Part shown: piece by piece, positions 651 through 8,373 of the stretch | Numbering within the stretch: position 1 is the stretch's first letter | Layout: the number at the start of each line of letters is the position of its first letter | NCBI RefSeq assembly: GCF_003073135.1 | Contig: NZ_PGDQ01000020.1 | Span: 1-64,000 of the forward strand | Source of the DNA: Euzebya rosea | GTDB lineage: Bacteria; Actinomycetota; Nitriliruptoria; Euzebyales; Euzebyaceae | Length of the DNA: 64,000 nucleotides | Reading direction: 5' to 3' | Made by a program: the position numbers and the translations under genes | The notes under the pieces: generated by a model | The model's input: only the letters and a program-made list of their open reading frames with translations | What the model was told of the DNA's origin: nothing | Databases searched by the model: none

Positions 651-1556
651 TCAGGTGGCGGCCCGATCGCCCGCCGAATCGTCGAACCAGTCACGGATGG
701 CCCGGCACGCCGCGTCCGGTGCGTCGTCCTGCCAGTAGTGGTTGGCCCCCTCCAGCAGGACGGTGCGGTGGTCGGCGAAGGTCGCCTCCATCCGGCGCAG
801 CACCGGCGTGCCGAACGCGGGATCCCTGGTGGCCCACAGCAGCAGGGCCGGCAGGTCGGTCAGGCCGGTGGCCATCGTGTCGTAGCGCGTCTGGGCGAGG
901 AACGGCCGCGCCCCGGTGATCCGCTCCGGGAAGACGTGGGTGGGCTCTCGTGATGCCGGAGTGGGGTAGGGACCCCGCCACATGGCCATCTCGGCCTCCC
1001 CGGGACGACGGAGGCTGTGCGCCCGGGGGATGACCTGCTCCACGAAGGCGTTCAGGCGCTTGTGGGCGAACGTGCCGATCGGCCCGCCCATCAGCCACGA
1101 GAAGGCGGAGAACTGCACGTCGTCGACCGGCCAGCACCACGTGTTGCCGATCACGAACCGGCTGTAGCGGTCGGGATCGGCGGCCGCGGCCGCCAGGCCG
1201 ATCGGGCCTCCCCAGTCCTGCAGGACCATGGTCACGTCGGTGAGGTCGAGGCCGCGGACGAGGCCGGCGACGATCCGGGCGTGCTCCTCGGGCCCGAAGG
1301 CGTATCCCCGGCGAGCGCTCGACAACCCCATGCCCGGGTAGTCGGGGGCGACGCACCGGTAGTCGCTGGACAGGTCGGCGATCATGTCGCGGTACAGGAA
1401 CGACCAGGTCGGGTTGCCGTGCAGCATCAGCAGCGTCGGCCCCTCGCCCTCGTCGAGGTAGTGCACCGAGCAGTCGTCGACGTCGAGGAAGTGGCTCTCG
1501 AAGGGGTACAGCGTGTCGTCGACCCAGCTGGGCCGCTCACCGGGGGTCGGGTTCAT
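651..1556 (-). CDS. Haloalkane dehalogenase-like alpha/beta hydrolase
   Basis: Cytoplasmic alpha/beta-hydrolase of 301 residues, the usual size of haloalkane dehalogenases. HGNPTWSFLYR (residues 46-56) forms the oxyanion region. The nucleophile is Asp114 in VLQDWGGP, with the halide-binding Trp115 next to it. Asp245 (TRDPAF) and His273 (NHYW) complete the triad. An Asp rather than Ser nucleophile supports hydrolytic dehalogenation of haloalkanes, but substrate range cannot be read from sequence, and related epoxide hydrolases share the fold. The ATG at 1556 gives the family N-terminus; an upstream in-frame start would add a 46-residue basic stretch with no similarity. It is divergent from ileS across a 243-bp region containing an 11-bp inverted repeat. 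Confidence 0.82.
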   Translation of the reverse strand: MNPTPGERPSWVDDTLYPFESHFLDVDDCSVHYLDEGEGPTLLMLHGNPTWSFLYRDMIADLSSDYRCVAPDYPGMGLSSARRGYAFGPEEHARIVAGLVRGLDLTDVTMVLQDWGGPIGLAAAAADPDRYSRFVIGNTWCWPVDDVQFSAFSWLMGGPIGTFAHKRLNAFVEQVIPRAHSLRRPGEAEMAMWRGPYPTPASREPTHVFPERITGARPFLAQTRYDTMATGLTDLPALLLWATRDPAFGTPVLRRMEATFADHRTVLLEGANHYWQDDAPDAACRAIRDWFDDSAGDRAAT

Positions 1557-1607
1557 CGGCGCATCGTCCCACGCCACCGGCCCGTCCGGCCACCCCTCCC
1601 GGGCCCA

Positions 1608-1652
1608 CGCGTGTCGGGCGATCACGACCGGCGGCCCGATACCCGACACGCG
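1608..1652. promoter_or_regulatory. 11-bp inverted repeat in the divergent dehalogenase/ileS region
   Basis: The arms at 1608-1618 and 1642-1652 are perfect reverse complements (CGCGTGTCGGG / CCCGACACGCG) with a 23-nt loop. The loop contains a GATCACGACCGGCGGCCCG stretch that recurs with changes at about 1689-1708. It lies in the shared upstream region of two divergent genes, so it could be an operator or an RNA hairpin in the ileS leader. No T-box consensus was seen. Confidence 0.45.
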
Positions 1653-1799
1653 CCCGAGCGGTGACGGGCGGCGGTTCGGGGGACGGGTGATCACGGCCGG
1701 CGGCCCGGTCGGGTGCGTCGGCCGGTCACCTCGTCGGACGGTCCATCGCGGCTACGCTCTGCTCCCGCACGACGCACGTCCCCGCGAGAAAGCCGAGCA

Positions 1800-4700
1800 G
1801 TGTTCTCCCCCGTCGACCAGCAGCCCGACTTCCCGGGCATGGAAACCGCAGTCCTGCAGCGGTGGAAGGACCACCGGACGTTCCGGGCGTCGCTCGACGC
1901 ACGCGCCGACGGTCCGCTGTTCTCCTTCAACGAGGGTCCGCCGACCGCCAACGGTCGGCCGGGGGTCCACCACGTCGAGGCACGGGTCTTCAAGGACATC
2001 TTCCCCCGCTACCGCACGATGAAGGGGTACCGGGTCCCGCGGAAGGCCGGCTGGGACTGCCACGGGATCCCGGTGGAGCTCGAGGTCGAGAAGACGCTCG
2101 GCTTCACCCACAAGCAGGAGATCGAGGACTACGGCGTCGAGGCGTTCAACCGCCTGTGCCGCGAGTCGGTGGAGACCTACGTCGACGAATGGACGCGCCT
2201 GACCGAGCGCATCGCGTTCTGGGTCGACACCGACGACGCCTACTGGACGATGGACGCCTCCTACGTGGAGAGCGTCTGGTGGAGCCTCAAGCAGCTGTGG
2301 GACGCCGGGCTGCTGTACGAGGGGCACAAGGTCCTCCCCTACTGCGGCCGCTGCGGGACGTCGCTGTCGGACCACGAGGTCGCCCAGGGCTACGACCAGG
2401 CCGAGGATCCCTCGGTGTACGTCCGTTTCCCGCTCACCGAGGGTCCGCTGGCCGAGGCCGGTGCATCGCTGGCCGTGTGGACGACCACCCCATGGACGCT
2501 GATCTCCAACACCCTCGTCGCCGTCGGCGAGGACCTGCAGTACGTGCTGGCCCAGGCCAACGACGACGCCTTCCCCGTGGTCGTCGCCCGCGACCTGGTC
2601 CAGGCGGTCCTGGGCGAGGGAGCAACCGTCCACCGTGACGTCGCCGTGGAGGAGCTCCTCGGGCAGCCGTACCGGGCGCCGTTCGACTTCGTCGTCCCCG
2701 AGGGCCGCGCCCACTACGTGACGACCGCCGACTTCGTCACCACCAGCGACGGCACCGGGCTGGTGCACATGGCCCCGGCGTTCGGCGCCGACGACTACGC
2801 CATCGGCCAGCGCGAAGGGGTCGAGGTCGTCAACCCCGTCGACCTCGAGGGCCGCTTCACCGACCGGGTCACGCCCTGGGCGGGCCTGTTCGTCAAGGAC
2901 GCCGACGCGGGGATCATCGAGGCGCTCGGCGAGGCCGGGCTGCTGATCAGGGCCGAGACCTACACCCACACCTATCCGTTCTGCTGGCGGTGCAAGAACC
3001 CGCTGCTGTACTACGCCAAGCCGTCCTGGTACGTGGCCACGTCGCAGTACAAGGACAAGCTGCTGGCCGTCAACGCCGAGGTCGACTGGCACCCCGAGCA
3101 CATCCGCGACGGCCGCTACGGCGACTGGCTGTCCAACAACATCGACTGGGCGCTGTCCCGATCCCGCTACTGGGGCACGCCGCTGCCGGTGTGGCGCTGC
3201 GACGGGTGCGACGACGCGGTGTGCGTGGGATCGCGTGCCGAGCTCGGGGACCTGACCGGCAACGACCTGTCCGGCCTCGACCCGCACCGTCCCTACATCG
3301 ACGACATCACCTTCGAGTGCCGACGCGACACCGACCACGGCCCCTGCGGCGGAACCATGATCCGCGTGCCCGACGTCATCGACGCGTGGTACGACTCCGG
3401 CGCCATGCCGTTCGCCCAGTTCGGCTACCCCTGGGTCGAGGGGTCGGAGCAGACGTTCAGCGAACGGTTCCCCGCCGACTACATCTGCGAGGCCATCGAC
3501 CAGACGCGCGGATGGTTCTACTCGCTGATGGCCGAGTCCACCCTGCTGTTCGAGCAGAACAGCTACCGGACGGTCCTGTGCCTGGGACACATCGTCGACG
3601 CCGACGGCAAGAAGATGTCCAAGTCGTTGGGCAACATCATCTCGCCGTGGGAGATCGTGGATCGGCACGGCGCGGATCCGCTGCGGTGGCTGCTGCTGAC
3701 CGACGGATCGCCGTGGGTCAACCGCCGCGTCGGCCACGGACCCGTCGAGGACGTCGTCCGTCGGTTCTTCCTGACGCTGTGGAACAGCTACTACTTCTTC
3801 GTGACCTACGCCCGCATCGACGGGTGGACCCCGGACGTCCGACCGGCCCCGCCGGTCGCCGACCGGCCGGTGATGGACCGCTGGATCCTGTCGGAGCTGG
3901 CGCAGCTGATCACCACCGTCGACGAGGGGCTGGAGGCGTTCGACGCCACCACCGCCGGTCGTGCGCTGGAGGACTTCGTCGACGGGCTGTCCAACTGGTA
4001 CATCCGCCGGACCCGATCCCGGTTCTGGGCCGAGGGCACCTCGGCGGACAAGGACGCGGCCTTCGCCACCCTGCACGAGTGCCTGGTCACGCTGTCGGCA
4101 CTGCTGGCCCCGTTCACGCCCTTCGTGGCCGAGTCGCTGTACGACAACCTCGTCTGCACCGTCGACGCCGAGGCGCCCGACAGCGTGCACCTGCTGGACT
4201 TCCCCGTGCCCGACGCGGCTGCCGACGACGCTGGCCTCCGGCGCGCGATGGCCGCTGCGCGCGAGGTCGTCACCCTCGGCCTGCGCGCCCGCAACGAGGC
4301 ACAGATCGGCGTGCGCCAGCCGTTGCCACGCGCGCTGGTCACGCTGCCCGACACCGACGGCTGGGACCGCGTGGCCGGGGTCGTCGCCGACGAGCTGAAC
4401 CTGAAGGCCATCGAGCTGAGCGAGGGCGGCGACACCGTCAGCTACCAGCTGAAGGCCAGCTTCCGCGACCTCGGCCGGGTGTTCGGCAAGCAGACCCCCG
4501 ACGTCGCCGCGGCGATCACGTCCGCCGACCCCGATCCGATCGTGGCGGCCGTGCGTGCCGAGCAGTCCGTGGACCTCGTGCTGTCCGACGGCACGTCGGT
4601 CACCGTCGACCCCACGATGGTCCAGGTCGTCGAGGAGTCCCGGGAGGGCTGGACCGTTGCCTCCGAGGGGGGCGTGTCGGTTGCGCTGGACCTGACCGTC

Positions 4701-4967
4701 GACGACGTGCTGCGGCGCGAGGGCCTGGCCCGCGAGCTGATCCGCACCATCAACGACCAGCGCAAGCAGCTGGACCTGCAGCTGTCCGACCGTATCCGCC
4801 TGGAGCTGGCCATCGACGGCCAGCTGAAGGAGGCGGTGGCCGACCACCGCGAGGCCATCAGCCGCGAGACGCTCGCAACCGACATCACCGACGGGGCAGC
4901 CTCCGGCGGTGCGTTCGTGGAAGTCGGCGGACACGCCGCCCGTATCCGTATCGAGGTCAACCGATGA
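1800..4967 (+). CDS. ileS: Isoleucyl-tRNA synthetase
   Basis: Class I synthetase that charges tRNA-Ile with isoleucine; cytoplasmic and essential. The 1,055-residue length fits the long bacterial IleS form. The HIGH-equivalent motif is in GPPTANGRPGVHHV, followed by GWDCHGIPVE. KMSKSLGN is the KMSKS loop, with the editing domain between them and an anticodon-binding C-terminal half (WYIRRTRSRFW). Cysteine pairs in the CGRCG and CRWxCDGC-like segments suggest bound zinc. The GTG at 1800 is chosen because the N-terminus then starts just before the conserved DFPGMETAVLQRW segment; the earlier in-frame ATG at 1713 adds an arginine-rich leader lacking homology. The stop overlaps the ATG of the next gene (ATGA). 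Confidence 0.95.
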   Translation: MFSPVDQQPDFPGMETAVLQRWKDHRTFRASLDARADGPLFSFNEGPPTANGRPGVHHVEARVFKDIFPRYRTMKGYRVPRKAGWDCHGIPVELEVEKTLGFTHKQEIEDYGVEAFNRLCRESVETYVDEWTRLTERIAFWVDTDDAYWTMDASYVESVWWSLKQLWDAGLLYEGHKVLPYCGRCGTSLSDHEVAQGYDQAEDPSVYVRFPLTEGPLAEAGASLAVWTTTPWTLISNTLVAVGEDLQYVLAQANDDAFPVVVARDLVQAVLGEGATVHRDVAVEELLGQPYRAPFDFVVPEGRAHYVTTADFVTTSDGTGLVHMAPAFGADDYAIGQREGVEVVNPVDLEGRFTDRVTPWAGLFVKDADAGIIEALGEAGLLIRAETYTHTYPFCWRCKNPLLYYAKPSWYVATSQYKDKLLAVNAEVDWHPEHIRDGRYGDWLSNNIDWALSRSRYWGTPLPVWRCDGCDDAVCVGSRAELGDLTGNDLSGLDPHRPYIDDITFECRRDTDHGPCGGTMIRVPDVIDAWYDSGAMPFAQFGYPWVEGSEQTFSERFPADYICEAIDQTRGWFYSLMAESTLLFEQNSYRTVLCLGHIVDADGKKMSKSLGNIISPWEIVDRHGADPLRWLLLTDGSPWVNRRVGHGPVEDVVRRFFLTLWNSYYFFVTYARIDGWTPDVRPAPPVADRPVMDRWILSELAQLITTVDEGLEAFDATTAGRALEDFVDGLSNWYIRRTRSRFWAEGTSADKDAAFATLHECLVTLSALLAPFTPFVAESLYDNLVCTVDAEAPDSVHLLDFPVPDAAADDAGLRRAMAAAREVVTLGLRARNEAQIGVRQPLPRALVTLPDTDGWDRVAGVVADELNLKAIELSEGGDTVSYQLKASFRDLGRVFGKQTPDVAAAITSADPDPIVAAVRAEQSVDLVLSDGTSVTVDPTMVQVVEESREGWTVASEGGVSVALDLTVDDVLRREGLARELIRTINDQRKQLDLQLSDRIRLELAIDGQLKEAVADHREAISRETLATDITDGAASGGAFVEVGGHAARIRIEVNR

Positions 4968-5620
4968 CTGCCCGCAGCCTGCTCCGCCGAGCGCTCCTCC
5001 TCGCCGGCCTCGTCGGCCTCGTCGCCGGGGTCGTGTGGAGCCGCAAGGAGCTCAACGAACCCACCGACCGGACCGGCTCGGCGATCCCGCTGCCGCGGGT
5101 ACCCCGCGGGACCGACCGGATCGCCGACGCGCGCCTCGTCGCACGCCCCGGCGAGCCCGAATGGATCGTGGACCTGGCCGGCTGGGTACCGAAGCCCATC
5201 ACGAGCCGCCCGCTGCAGCTCCTGGCGATCGTGTGGGCCCTCCCCTCGACGGTGGTCGGCCTGCTCCTCGGCCTGCTGAGCGGCGCGACGCCGACGCTGC
5301 GCGACGGCGTGATCGTCTTCTCCCCCGTTCGCGGACCGGTCTGCTTCGCCCTCCACCGGGGTGGATTCGCCGCCACGACCCTGGGACACGTGGTCCTTGC
5401 CCGGCACGAGCCGTCGGCAGCCCTGATGGCCCACGAGCTCGTGCACACCCGGCAGGCGGAGCGGCTCGGCCCGCTCATGGGCCCCACCTACTGGTACCTG
5501 CTGGCCCGCTACGGCTACGCACGCCACCCCATGGAGCGTGCCGCGCGCATCGCCGGCCGCGAGGCGAAGCACGTGGGCGGTGGGCACACCCGTCCCACCA
5601 AACCTCCCGTCCACACCTAG
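4964..5620 (+). CDS. Small membrane protein with HExxH motif, function unknown
   Basis: A 218-residue protein translationally coupled to ileS (4-bp overlap). Residues 9-25 are a membrane segment or signal anchor and residues 86-107 a second one. The C-terminal part contains HELVH (residues 157-161), the zinc-metalloprotease pattern, in a helix flanked by arginines, followed by a tyrosine-rich YWYLLARYGYARHP stretch and ERAARIAGREA. A third zinc ligand is not obvious. It could be a membrane-associated metallopeptidase or a DUF family that merely resembles one. No specific name is justified; the link to ileS may only be co-transcription. Confidence 0.75.
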   Translation: MTARSLLRRALLLAGLVGLVAGVVWSRKELNEPTDRTGSAIPLPRVPRGTDRIADARLVARPGEPEWIVDLAGWVPKPITSRPLQLLAIVWALPSTVVGLLLGLLSGATPTLRDGVIVFSPVRGPVCFALHRGGFAATTLGHVVLARHEPSAALMAHELVHTRQAERLGPLMGPTYWYLLARYGYARHPMERAARIAGREAKHVGGGHTRPTKPPVHT

Positions 5621-5631
5621 GCTCCGCCTCG

Positions 5632-7791
5632 ATGGGCCCGCGGCACAGTCACCGATCGGGTCGCCTCGCCTCGGGCGGGGCGATCGCCGTGCGTCCGCGT
5701 GCCCGTTCCGTGGTGCCAGGAGTGCTGCTGGGCTGCATGCTGCTGGCCGGCATCGGCGTGCCCGCGGTCGTCCTGCCGGTCGTCGCACCCACGAGTCCCC
5801 TCCTGTCGTCGGCGGTGGCGGACCCGATGCCGGCCGCGACCGACGACGACGCCGCAGCGCTGGCCGGGGGCTGGCTGGCCCGGCAGGTCACCGCCAGCGG
5901 ATCGCCACGGGGAACCAGCACCGCGGAGGACCTGCGACCGGCCGGCTGGGCAGTGCTCGGCATGCTGGCGAGCGGTGTCGGCGAGACGGCAGCAGCCCGC
6001 GCGAGCGCGGCGATCGCCTCCGCGGTCGTCGACCGTCCCACCGACGAGCTCGCGACCGGCGAGCTGGGGATGGCCATCCTCGTCCGCGTCGCCCGGACGT
6101 CCACTCTCGTGCTCGGGCCGGACGACCTCGACCTCGTCGCGGAGCTGCAGTCCCGGACGCAGTCCAACGGGGTGGACGCCGGGCTGATCGGGTCGTCGTC
6201 GCTGCTGCAGGAGCCCGTGACGACCCACAGCCTCGGGCTCCTGGCCCTGGTGGCCGCCGGTGTGCAGCCGAGCGACGCCCAGCTGCGCTGGCTGGCCCAG
6301 CAGCAGTGCCCGTCGGGCGGGTGGCCGCTGTACCGCGACGCTGCGGCCCGGTCGACGGGGACGTGCGAGCTGCTCGTGCCCGACATGGCCATCACCGCCG
6401 TGGCCGCGCAGGCCTCGGCGGCCGCCGGCATCGAGGTGCCCTTCGACGTCGAACGGTTCCTCCGCGCGTCGCTCAACCCAACCGGCGGATTCGCGCCGGC
6501 GCCGGGCCTGTCCCCAACCCCGGCGGCGACGGCCCATGGGATACAGACCCACCGCGCGCTGCTCGGGGGCGACCCCGACGAGACGTGGTCGGGGACGGCC
6601 GGGACACCCCAGCAGGTCCTGCTGGCCGAGCAGCTCGGGTGCGGCTGGCACGGCGAGGACCGGGGCGCGGTCCCCGAACGGATGCTCGACACCACGCCGG
6701 ACGTCGCACAACCCTCCGCTGAGGGGCCGGGGGTGGCCGCCGCCGTCGAGGACGTCGCTGCGGCGACGCTGGTGTGGGCCGACGTGCAGCTCCCGATCGT
6801 CACGAGCGTCCCCAGAGTGGGCGACCCGTTCCCCGACTGTCCGGTGACGACGTCACGAGCAGCCGGCGCCGATCGGGTCGCCACGGCCGTCGCGCTGTCC
6901 GGCGAGGCGTTCCCCGACGGCGCCCCCGCAGCGGTCCTGGCAACCGCGTCCGGCTACGCCGACGCGTTGGCCGCCACGGCCTTGGCGGGTCGCCTCGAGG
7001 GGCCGGTGCTGCTGACCCCGCCGGCGGACCTGCCCGACATCGTCCTCGACGAGCTGGCCAGGCTCGGCGTGGAGGAGGTCGTGCTGATGGGTGGTCCCGC
7101 GGCCCTGAGCCGACGCGCCGAGTCGACCGCGGCGTCGGTGGACACCGTGGAGACGGTGCGACGCATCGCCGGTGACACACGGTTCGAGACCGCCGCCGCA
7201 GCGGCGGAGGAGGTCGGCGGCAACCGTGCGTTCCTCGCCAGGGGCGCCGGGCCGACCGATCAGGCACCGTGGGCCGACGCCCTGGCCGTGGGCGCATGGG
7301 CCGCGACGCAGGGCATCCCGGTGCTGCTGACGGAGGCCGATGTCCTGCCGGAGGAGACGGCCGCTGCGCTTGACGGGCGAGCCGAGGTCATCGTCGTGGG
7401 TGGGACGGCCGCGGTCTCCGAGGACGTCGCGCAGGCGGTGACGGCGCACGCCGATGCCGTCAGGCGGATCGGCGGCGGCAGTCGCCTGGCCACCTCCGCG
7501 TTGGCCTTCGCTGCCGCCCGCGCCGACGGGATCGACGTGGCCCGGGTCGCGCTGGCCACGAGCGCCGACTACCCCGACGCGCTGGCGGCGGGACCGGCGA
7601 TCGCCGCGCTCGGCGGCAGCCTGCTGCTGGTCGATCCGTCCGCTGGGGTGGCCAACCCCGACAGCGGCAACGCCCTCCTCGACGTCGACTACGTCGTGGA
7701 CCACCTGATGGCCGTCGGCGGCGTCGCCGGCCTGCCCGCACAGGTGCTGGCGGACGCCGCGGCCCTCGTCCGCGAGGGCGTCGACGGCTGA
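5632..7791 (+). CDS. Secreted surface protein: alpha-toroid repeats plus three CWB2 domains
   Basis: A 719-residue exported protein. Residues 1-27 are basic, 28-60 hydrophobic, and a signal-peptidase-like AVADP site lies near residue 62. Residues about 70-395 contain repeats resembling the alpha/alpha-toroid of prenyltransferases and terpene cyclases (WLAQQQCPSGGWPLY; LNPTGGFAPAPG). Residues about 403-719 hold three cell-wall-binding repeat 2 (PF04122-type) domains, each with a GYADALAA-like segment and a VVLMGGPAALS-like VxxxGG motif. CWB2 modules typically hold proteins non-covalently in the envelope. The catalytic DxDD of terpene cyclases is not seen, so the toroid is probably a binding scaffold. 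The ATG at 5632 follows the previous stop by 11 bp. Confidence 0.85.
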   Translation: MGPRHSHRSGRLASGGAIAVRPRARSVVPGVLLGCMLLAGIGVPAVVLPVVAPTSPLLSSAVADPMPAATDDDAAALAGGWLARQVTASGSPRGTSTAEDLRPAGWAVLGMLASGVGETAAARASAAIASAVVDRPTDELATGELGMAILVRVARTSTLVLGPDDLDLVAELQSRTQSNGVDAGLIGSSSLLQEPVTTHSLGLLALVAAGVQPSDAQLRWLAQQQCPSGGWPLYRDAAARSTGTCELLVPDMAITAVAAQASAAAGIEVPFDVERFLRASLNPTGGFAPAPGLSPTPAATAHGIQTHRALLGGDPDETWSGTAGTPQQVLLAEQLGCGWHGEDRGAVPERMLDTTPDVAQPSAEGPGVAAAVEDVAAATLVWADVQLPIVTSVPRVGDPFPDCPVTTSRAAGADRVATAVALSGEAFPDGAPAAVLATASGYADALAATALAGRLEGPVLLTPPADLPDIVLDELARLGVEEVVLMGGPAALSRRAESTAASVDTVETVRRIAGDTRFETAAAAAEEVGGNRAFLARGAGPTDQAPWADALAVGAWAATQGIPVLLTEADVLPEETAAALDGRAEVIVVGGTAAVSEDVAQAVTAHADAVRRIGGGSRLATSALAFAAARADGIDVARVALATSADYPDALAAGPAIAALGGSLLLVDPSAGVANPDSGNALLDVDYVVDHLMAVGGVAGLPAQVLADAAALVREGVDG

Positions 7792-7806
7792 CGGGCCGTC
7801 ATCGGC

Positions 7807-7826
7807 TCCGGTCGACGTCGACCGGA
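7807..7826. terminator. 20-bp perfect palindrome between convergent genes
   Basis: TCCGGTCGACGTCGACCGGA is its own reverse complement. It sits in the 42-bp gap between the convergent CWB2 gene and the proline-rich membrane protein. There is no T-tract on either strand, so it would be a hairpin-only bidirectional terminator; a palindromic protein site is the alternative. Confidence 0.45.
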
Positions 7827-7833
7827 CCGGACG

Positions 7834-8373
7834 TCAGGCCGGGGGTGGCGGAGGCGGCGGCGGGGTCGCCGCTGGACGGCTGGTCCCCGACGAGGACGCC
7901 GGCCGAGGGCTGGCGCCCGGAGGGGCCCAGCCGCCACCGCTCGGGGGGGCCGGCGCGCCCTTGGGCGGCGGTGCCGGTGCGGGCGGCGGTGCCGGAGCCG
8001 GCGGCGGCGTGGCGACGGGTGCCGCTGGTGGCGTGGGCGGGGCGTCCTGCACCGCGGGCGGGTCCTCCGTGGTTGCGTTCAGGTCCGTGGTCACGTCCTC
8101 GTCACGGGACAGGGCGTCCTGGCCGTTCCCGCTCCAGCCCGCGCCCTTCCACGTGGCCGCAGGGGCCGCGTCACCGGACGTGGTCGTCGGGGCGGCTGCC
8201 CGAACGGGCTTGGGTCGCCGGTTGCCGCGGAGCACGCCGACCAGCAGGAACACCCCCGCGGCAAGCGCGGCCGCGATGGAGACGTAGATGAGGTCGAGCT
8301 CCTCGGAGAACAGACCGCCGATCAGCAGGCTGACGGCTGAGACGAGGACGAGGATGAGGCTGATGAGGATCAC
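7834..8373 (-). CDS. Two-helix membrane protein with proline-rich tail, hypothetical
   Basis: A 179-residue protein from a GTG start with a GAAGG ribosome site about 8 nt upstream. Residues 1-22 and 28-49 form two membrane segments with a short acidic loop (SEELD) between them. The rest is a hydrophilic tail with an acidic patch and a proline/alanine-rich region (PPPAPAPPPAPAPPPKG) that ends in a polyproline run. Such tails occur in actinobacterial envelope proteins. It follows divIVA on the same strand, so it may belong to the division operon's 3' end. No known family was recognised. Confidence 0.7.
   Translation of the reverse strand: MILISLILVLVSAVSLLIGGLFSEELDLIYVSIAAALAAGVFLLVGVLRGNRRPKPVRAAAPTTTSGDAAPAATWKGAGWSGNGQDALSRDEDVTTDLNATTEDPPAVQDAPPTPPAAPVATPPPAPAPPPAPAPPPKGAPAPPSGGGWAPPGASPRPASSSGTSRPAATPPPPPPPPA

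Follow-up and report, generated by a model that had tools for sequence, protein, structure and literature searches.

The window, which is the whole 64,000-nucleotide stretch of Euzebya rosea DNA that was analysed, contains a gene whose predicted product combines a leader, a toroid-type head and three CWB2 repeats (Table 1). The open reading frame extends from an ATG codon at 5632 to a TGA codon at 7789-7791 (719 codons plus stop), in agreement with the limits given to the gene in the original prediction. The neighbours of this gene are ileS, a gene for a small HEXXH protein and divIVA, with sepF and ftsZ also close. The HEXXH gene overlaps the end of ileS, and the gene under study begins 11 bases downstream of it.

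Table 1. Positions of the gene, its parts and its neighbour in the window, and of the related locus in the same genome
Feature	Position	Strand	Remarks
Whole gene	5632..7791	+	product of 719 aa with leader, toroid-type head and three CWB2 repeats
Leader, residues 1-66	5632..5829	+	hydrophobic stretch at residues 30-48
Alpha/alpha-toroid-type head, residues 68-398	5833..6825	+	related to the SCO2321 family and to toroids of B12-type ECF loci
Cysteine pair C226, C245 around a GGW motif	6307..6366	+	invariant in all 14 aligned heads
CWB2 repeat 1	6856..7116	+	E 5.1e-15; holds PVLL
CWB2 repeat 2	7162..7428	+	E 2.6e-18; holds PVLL
CWB2 repeat 3	7456..7746	+	third Pfam stretch; limits set by eye
Neighbour gene, small protein with HELVH zinc-protease-like motif	4964..5620	+	outside the proposed mechanism
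Cobalamin-riboswitch ECF locus, same genome	L011:7873-15054 (G000:C2)		toroid + SCO2322-like + CWB2 protein, SCO2322-like protein, T, ATPases, S

The gene, its placement and its CWB2 tail

A second genome of the genus (G022) carries an ortholog at the equivalent locus (L044:9494-11605). The two genes share 81% identity over 702 codons, with an overall dN/dS ratio of 0.206 (head, 0.214; CWB2 part, 0.151). The value of 0.21 in the head indicates that the gene is under purifying selection, and the shared place, the identity and the overall dN/dS therefore identify the frame as a conserved gene. Residues 1-66 evolve rapidly (dN/dS 0.89 over 49 codons) and include a hydrophobic stretch with a Kyte-Doolittle maximum of 2.37 at residue 30, as expected of an export leader, and this segment is regarded as a putative export signal.

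The placement of the gene between the HEXXH gene and divIVA is seen only in the window and in G022, which are two of the four genomes of the genus examined; the other two, G023 and G024, lack it. The run of ftsZ, yggS, sepF, divIVA and the HEXXH gene is present in all eight other genomes examined, and the corresponding stretches contain no toroid or CWB2 match at 1e-4. This run is followed by ileS in six of the eight; the G023 contig stops inside the HEXXH gene, and no match to ileS was found in the corresponding stretch of G024. A small proline-rich gene (7834-8373 in the window) has a match in four of these eight stretches. Within the class, 56 of 66 genomes contain a match to the HELVH small protein itself, and its gene adjoins the divIVA-ftsZ run in 8/8 other genomes examined and stands next to ileS in 6/8. 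A search of a plasmid collection returned five records (four from Priestia, one from Rossellomorea) in which the CWB2 part alone, and not the head, was matched, and a scan of genome contigs gave one weak match, to a Butyrivibrio MAG (34% over query residues 258-314).

The three CWB2 domains read from the sequence at the outset are recovered by Pfam, as PF04122 matches the protein in three stretches (127.5 bits against a cut-off of 24.9, E 2.8e-37). Nothing else in the protein is matched by Pfam at E values up to 5, and an S-layer model of NCBIfam also matches the CWB2 part. One report on CWB2 proteins of Clostridioides difficile describes three repeats and a PILL-type motif as necessary for anchoring (PMC4973711). 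The window protein is similar to those described there in its three tandem repeats and in the PILL-type motif of repeats 1 and 2. It differs in belonging to another phylum and in carrying SLLL in repeat 3, where P[ILV][ILV][LV] is expected. The leader and the three repeats support the surface location that had been proposed, with export and anchoring both being predicted. The E. rosea genome carries a very large set of CWB2 surface proteins, with at least 159 matches to the CWB2 domain (150 of 372 candidates scored) and at least 130 places that resemble the triple repeat at 1e-10 (150 of 225 scored).

Relationship and conserved residues of the head

The head alone matches no Pfam family, including PF01122 (Cobalamin_bind). 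The NCBIfam model SCO2321_fam (NF053823) matches residues 171-363 with model positions 23-212 (E 3.9e-15), at a score of 55.7 bits that is below the curated cut-off of 300. This model also has matches in control genomes (5 of 14 at E up to 1, 2 of 14 at 1e-6 and 1 of 14 at 1e-10), and weak single matches to it consequently mean little. In profile-profile comparison, the heads of the window protein and its ortholog match an alignment of 12 relatives from the class, from which the window head was left out, at 98.1% (E 1.2e-13). A rerun gave 97.9%, while the reversed profile gave 0.15% and the best of 50 column shuffles 0.87%. Ten of these 12 heads are encoded on a contig shared with an ECF S component, and an eleventh (L045) comes from a genome that has the S component on another contig. 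The twelfth (L056) comes from a genome without an S-component match, and its contig ends in a frame that by eye is T-like.

The alignment of the relatives in turn matches solved structures of toroid proteins. Its profile matches the squalene-hopene cyclase 1gsz with a whole-sequence E value of 1.6e-20 (best single stretch 1.6e-4) and matches 7xq4 in a single stretch at 6.6e-10. The 43 solved sequences that it matches at E up to 1 include no chain of transcobalamin or intrinsic factor. A profile of only the window head and its ortholog matches a solved squalene-hopene cyclase at E 0.033. At E values up to 1, Prenyltrans matches 10 of 14 aligned heads, TED_complement nine and Cobalamin_bind four (best 2.4e-4). 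AlphaFold2 with single-sequence input yielded a mean pLDDT of 39.8 for the full protein and 38.5 for the head, and because both predictions fall below 40, assignment of the toroid fold rests on sequence homology. The toroid-like head proposed in the original prediction is supported by this chain of homology through the relatives. The GGW/GGF repeats on which that proposal drew are likewise present as three matches (79, 229 and 285), the one at 79 in a helix predicted with low confidence. The acid motif DxDD of class II terpene cyclases is absent as claimed, with no D.DD anywhere in the protein.

Comparison with the SCO2321 model reveals a circular permutation within the class, in that the part at about 240-355 precedes that at about 40-250 in ten genomes (G039, G040, G041, G043, G044, G045, G050, G052, G056 and G058; in G043 the leading part is 182-352). 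Heads from G035, G038 and G048 are colinear with the model. The permuted order of the halves fits a closed ring, which allows permutation. Two circularly permuted head orders are seen among the class loci, one in L046, L047 and L048 and the other in L049 to L057. The window protein differs further from the SCO2321 family in its low score, its CWB2 anchor and its position outside an ECF locus.

Conservation within the head was evaluated across the 31 columns that are invariant in the 12 relatives, of which 19 are kept in the window head. Columns of Gly, Leu, Ala and Cys are kept in 16 of 21 cases, whereas polar non-cysteine columns are kept in 3 of 10. The difference between polar and other columns has a Fisher p value of 0.021, for a split counted by hand and a post hoc test on few columns of an alignment at 22-30% identity. 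The seven changed polar columns are an Asp that falls in a gap, K147M, Q199H, D253A, N300T, T362S and Q364E (residue of the relatives, window position, residue in the window). The ortholog has likewise lost all seven, with the identical replacement at five of them. Uncertainty in the alignment affects the surroundings of D253 and Q364, and D251 could stand in for the lost D253 via a two-residue shift. The changed side chains probably line the cavity of the toroid, and C226 and C245 may form a disulfide.

Related toroids and their B12-transport context

Matches to NF053823 at E up to 1e-6 are present in 23 of 66 genomes of the class, counting the window gene and its ortholog. Fourteen further toroid loci of the class were fetched (L011, from the E. 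rosea genome itself, and L045 to L057). An ECF S component is encoded on the same contig in 11 of the 14. Cobalamin riboswitches (RF00174) reach the gathering score in eight (L011, L046, L047, L049, L052, L055, L056 and L057) and are absent at that score from six; all eight lie on the strand of the toroid gene at its 5' end. In L046, L055 and L056 the riboswitch overlaps the beginning of the longest frame, ahead of the hydrophobic leader, indicating that the true start of the toroid gene is further downstream. A further riboswitch in G024 (L053) scores 31.0 bits, just below the cut-off. The E. rosea genome (5.5 Mb) contains at least three cobalamin riboswitches (145 of 364 candidates scored).

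The S component is likewise found in 23 of the 66 genomes, 19 of which are among the 23 with a toroid match. In 14 of these 19 genomes the two genes share a contig and are separated by a few kilobases; in the other five they are on separate contigs of fragmented assemblies. The pairing is not strict, since four genomes have the S component and no toroid match at 1e-6 (G036, G042, G046 and G057) and four have a toroid and no S component match (G022, G040, G043 and G061). For the S component, the match to a folate-family model is weak (E 2.9e-4, below the cut-off), and comparison with solved chains gave no match at E up to 1.

The ECF locus of E. rosea encodes a paralog of the window protein, P0003 (L011:8108-10384), followed by a gene for a SCO2322-like secreted protein. 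Its ECF genes encode a CbiQ-type T component (PF02361, 3.3e-9), fused ATPases and an S component (PF12822, 6.7e-12). Similar to P0003 and the other toroids of ECF loci in the class, the window protein possesses a toroid-type head, the cysteine pair and the scaffold residues, and six of those toroids also have three CWB2 repeats. In contrast to P0003, which stands with the ECF T, A and S genes, the window gene has no adjacent ECF-transporter genes, and it has lost seven of the ten invariant polar residues. Another distinction is that four of the six relatives with CWB2 repeats contain a SCO2322-like domain between head and tail, whereas in the window protein CWB2 follows the head directly and no second, beta-grasp domain is present.

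A beta-grasp name for this second domain was considered and is not confirmed, since DUF4430 (PF14478) matches in none of 66 genomes at 1e-4 and in one of 13 relatives at E 0.15. No credible solved structure was found for it either (best E 0.61). The nearest model is SCO2322_fam (NF040672; 1.1e-8 for the free-standing protein of L011 and 7.9e-4 for P0003, both scores below its cut-off), and the domain is therefore called SCO2322-like.

The 15 toroid proteins of the 14 loci have varied tails: six carry CWB2, four SLH and five no tail recognised by Pfam at 0.01, the last with LPxTG-like or membrane ends by eye. The combination of a toroid with CWB2 had been described as uncommon, and it is; it is not unique, as six further examples besides the ortholog occur in class loci (one each in L011, L052, L054 and L045 and two in L053). 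In L053:5186-7210 and L054 the head is joined directly to CWB2 within an ECF locus, as judged from reading and a motif scan for the second domain. Two toroid+CWB2 genes stand in tandem ahead of the ECF genes in L053:5186-10282 (G024); one has two SCO2322-like domains and the other has none. The fusion thus belongs to a recognisable set of anchored toroids with B12-uptake context and is ordinary in kind.

Tail comparisons suggest a possible tail swap for the window protein. The best own-genome match of the window tail among those compared scores 149 bits, and the P0003 tail scores 51 bits, the lowest of all compared. Scores of the window tail with 12 of 13 other own-genome tails exceed those with five of the six ECF tails; seven of the 13 were chosen by similarity to the window tail, and five of the other six score higher. 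The first tail tree was biased, as its own-genome tails were picked by similarity to the window tail. The second included six tails from loci picked by Pfam score (of seven tried; the L005 match was too short) in addition to the seven picked by similarity. In the best tree, the six ECF tails form a clade (100/99) with the window tail outside it, yet a common clade of the window and ECF tails has a p-AU of 0.42 and a common origin is not rejected. Duplication of P0003 followed by simple loss of the second domain was another option; among the tails compared, that of P0003 resembles the window tail least, yet this same p-AU leaves a common tail origin unrejected.

In the wider phylum, NF053823 matches 41 of 197 genomes at 1e-10. 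Nine of these loci were fetched, and a riboswitch is directly upstream in two (L081 and L083); RF00174 at the gathering score is absent from the other seven, including all four above the SCO2321 cut-off, whose genes have ECF T-like frames nearby by eye. L083 (G240) combines two toroid genes and ECF-like genes in a region where four cobalamin riboswitches fall within 16 kb.

The S component in 11 of 14 loci and the riboswitch in eight point to corrinoids as the ancestral ligand, and the relatives look like B12-capture proteins; since the support is gene context, we infer this role. In animal transcobalamin, B12 is bound between a helical toroid and a beta-grasp domain, and B12 capture in the same way has been proposed for bacterial toroid+SLBB proteins, including members with signal peptides and Gram-positive anchors (PMC1796856). 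The window protein shares the helical toroid head that these proteins, like intrinsic factor (PF01122), use for B12 capture, but has neither a second domain nor a match to PF01122. Literature searches by the name SCO2321 and for CWB2 with cobalamin returned nothing related, judged by title and the start of the abstract, and searches by the names SCO2322 to SCO2325 found nothing.

Possible ligands and roles of the window protein

It is proposed that the window protein is an anchored, repurposed toroid of the B12-capture type with a changed or different small ligand, a reading that we consider close to an even bet. The leader would export the protein, and the three CWB2 repeats would hold it to an anionic wall polymer, as suggested by the C. 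difficile proteins. The head would form a ring of alpha-helix pairs with a central cavity that holds a small ligand. Its relatives, the SCO2321-type toroids, are apparent surface capture proteins of B12-type ECF transporters. A copy without the SCO2322-like second domain carried by several relatives was probably placed near the ileS-divIVA genes in one sublineage, and most of its invariant polar residues have been replaced while the scaffold was kept. The relocated copy, the absent second domain and the replaced polar residues make an altered corrinoid or a different small molecule the most likely ligand, which would be held independently of the ECF B12 transporter.

Alternatively, the protein may still capture corrinoids, as a wall-held reservoir that passes B12 or its precursors to the ECF system or another importer. 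The nearest relatives with informative context are the toroids of cobalamin-riboswitch ECF loci, direct joining of head and CWB2 also occurs in such loci, and E. rosea itself has a complete ECF locus. However, a search for cobalamin riboswitches found none in the window, none in the surroundings of the gene (1300-8000) at E up to 1 and none at the ortholog locus, and the loss of seven of ten invariant polar residues also argues against an unchanged ligand. Moreover, the G022 genome retains the ortholog yet lacks any match at 1e-10 to the S component of this ECF type, and NF053823 matches it nowhere else at 1e-6, which suggests that the protein is decoupled from the ECF system. Binding of a corrinoid by the window head is consequently doubtful, and the reservoir role is unlikely, if still a serious contender.

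The two remaining explanations depart from vitamin capture. The head could be a module for interaction with proteins or polymers, comparable to thioester-containing complement toroids, with a structural role in the envelope near the division genes and no small ligand. The TED_complement matches in nine of the 14 aligned heads and the position of the gene close behind the HEXXH gene and near divIVA, sepF and ftsZ are consistent with this role. The gene is missing from the corresponding stretch of all eight other genomes, so it is no general division factor, and its nearest relatives sit with a vitamin transporter; this role is thus rather improbable. The carbohydrate- or lipid-binding function of the original prediction has no direct pointer, although toroids include terpene cyclases and a hydrophobic cavity is conceivable. 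No relative in the loci examined has a lipid or sugar context, and the S components and riboswitches place the family with a vitamin ECF transporter; such a ligand is not supported and appears very improbable.

A fuller version of the repurposed, anchored toroid is a chimeric receptor: a toroid that left a riboswitch-controlled ECF operon, gained the CWB2 tail of another lineage, moved beside ileS-divIVA, remodelled its cavity and holds a new small molecule at the surface. This complete sequence of events is speculative and on balance unlikely. The repurposed toroid would nevertheless represent a case of a vitamin-capture fold that seems to have been released from its transporter and fixed to the wall, for which the paralog P0003 in the same genome provides a natural control in binding tests. 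The wider set, with 14 loci, 11 of them with an S component, varied tails and permuted rings, suggests that transcobalamin-like capture of B12 at the surface may be frequent in these bacteria, and it provides the SCO2321 and SCO2322 families with a function that can be tested.
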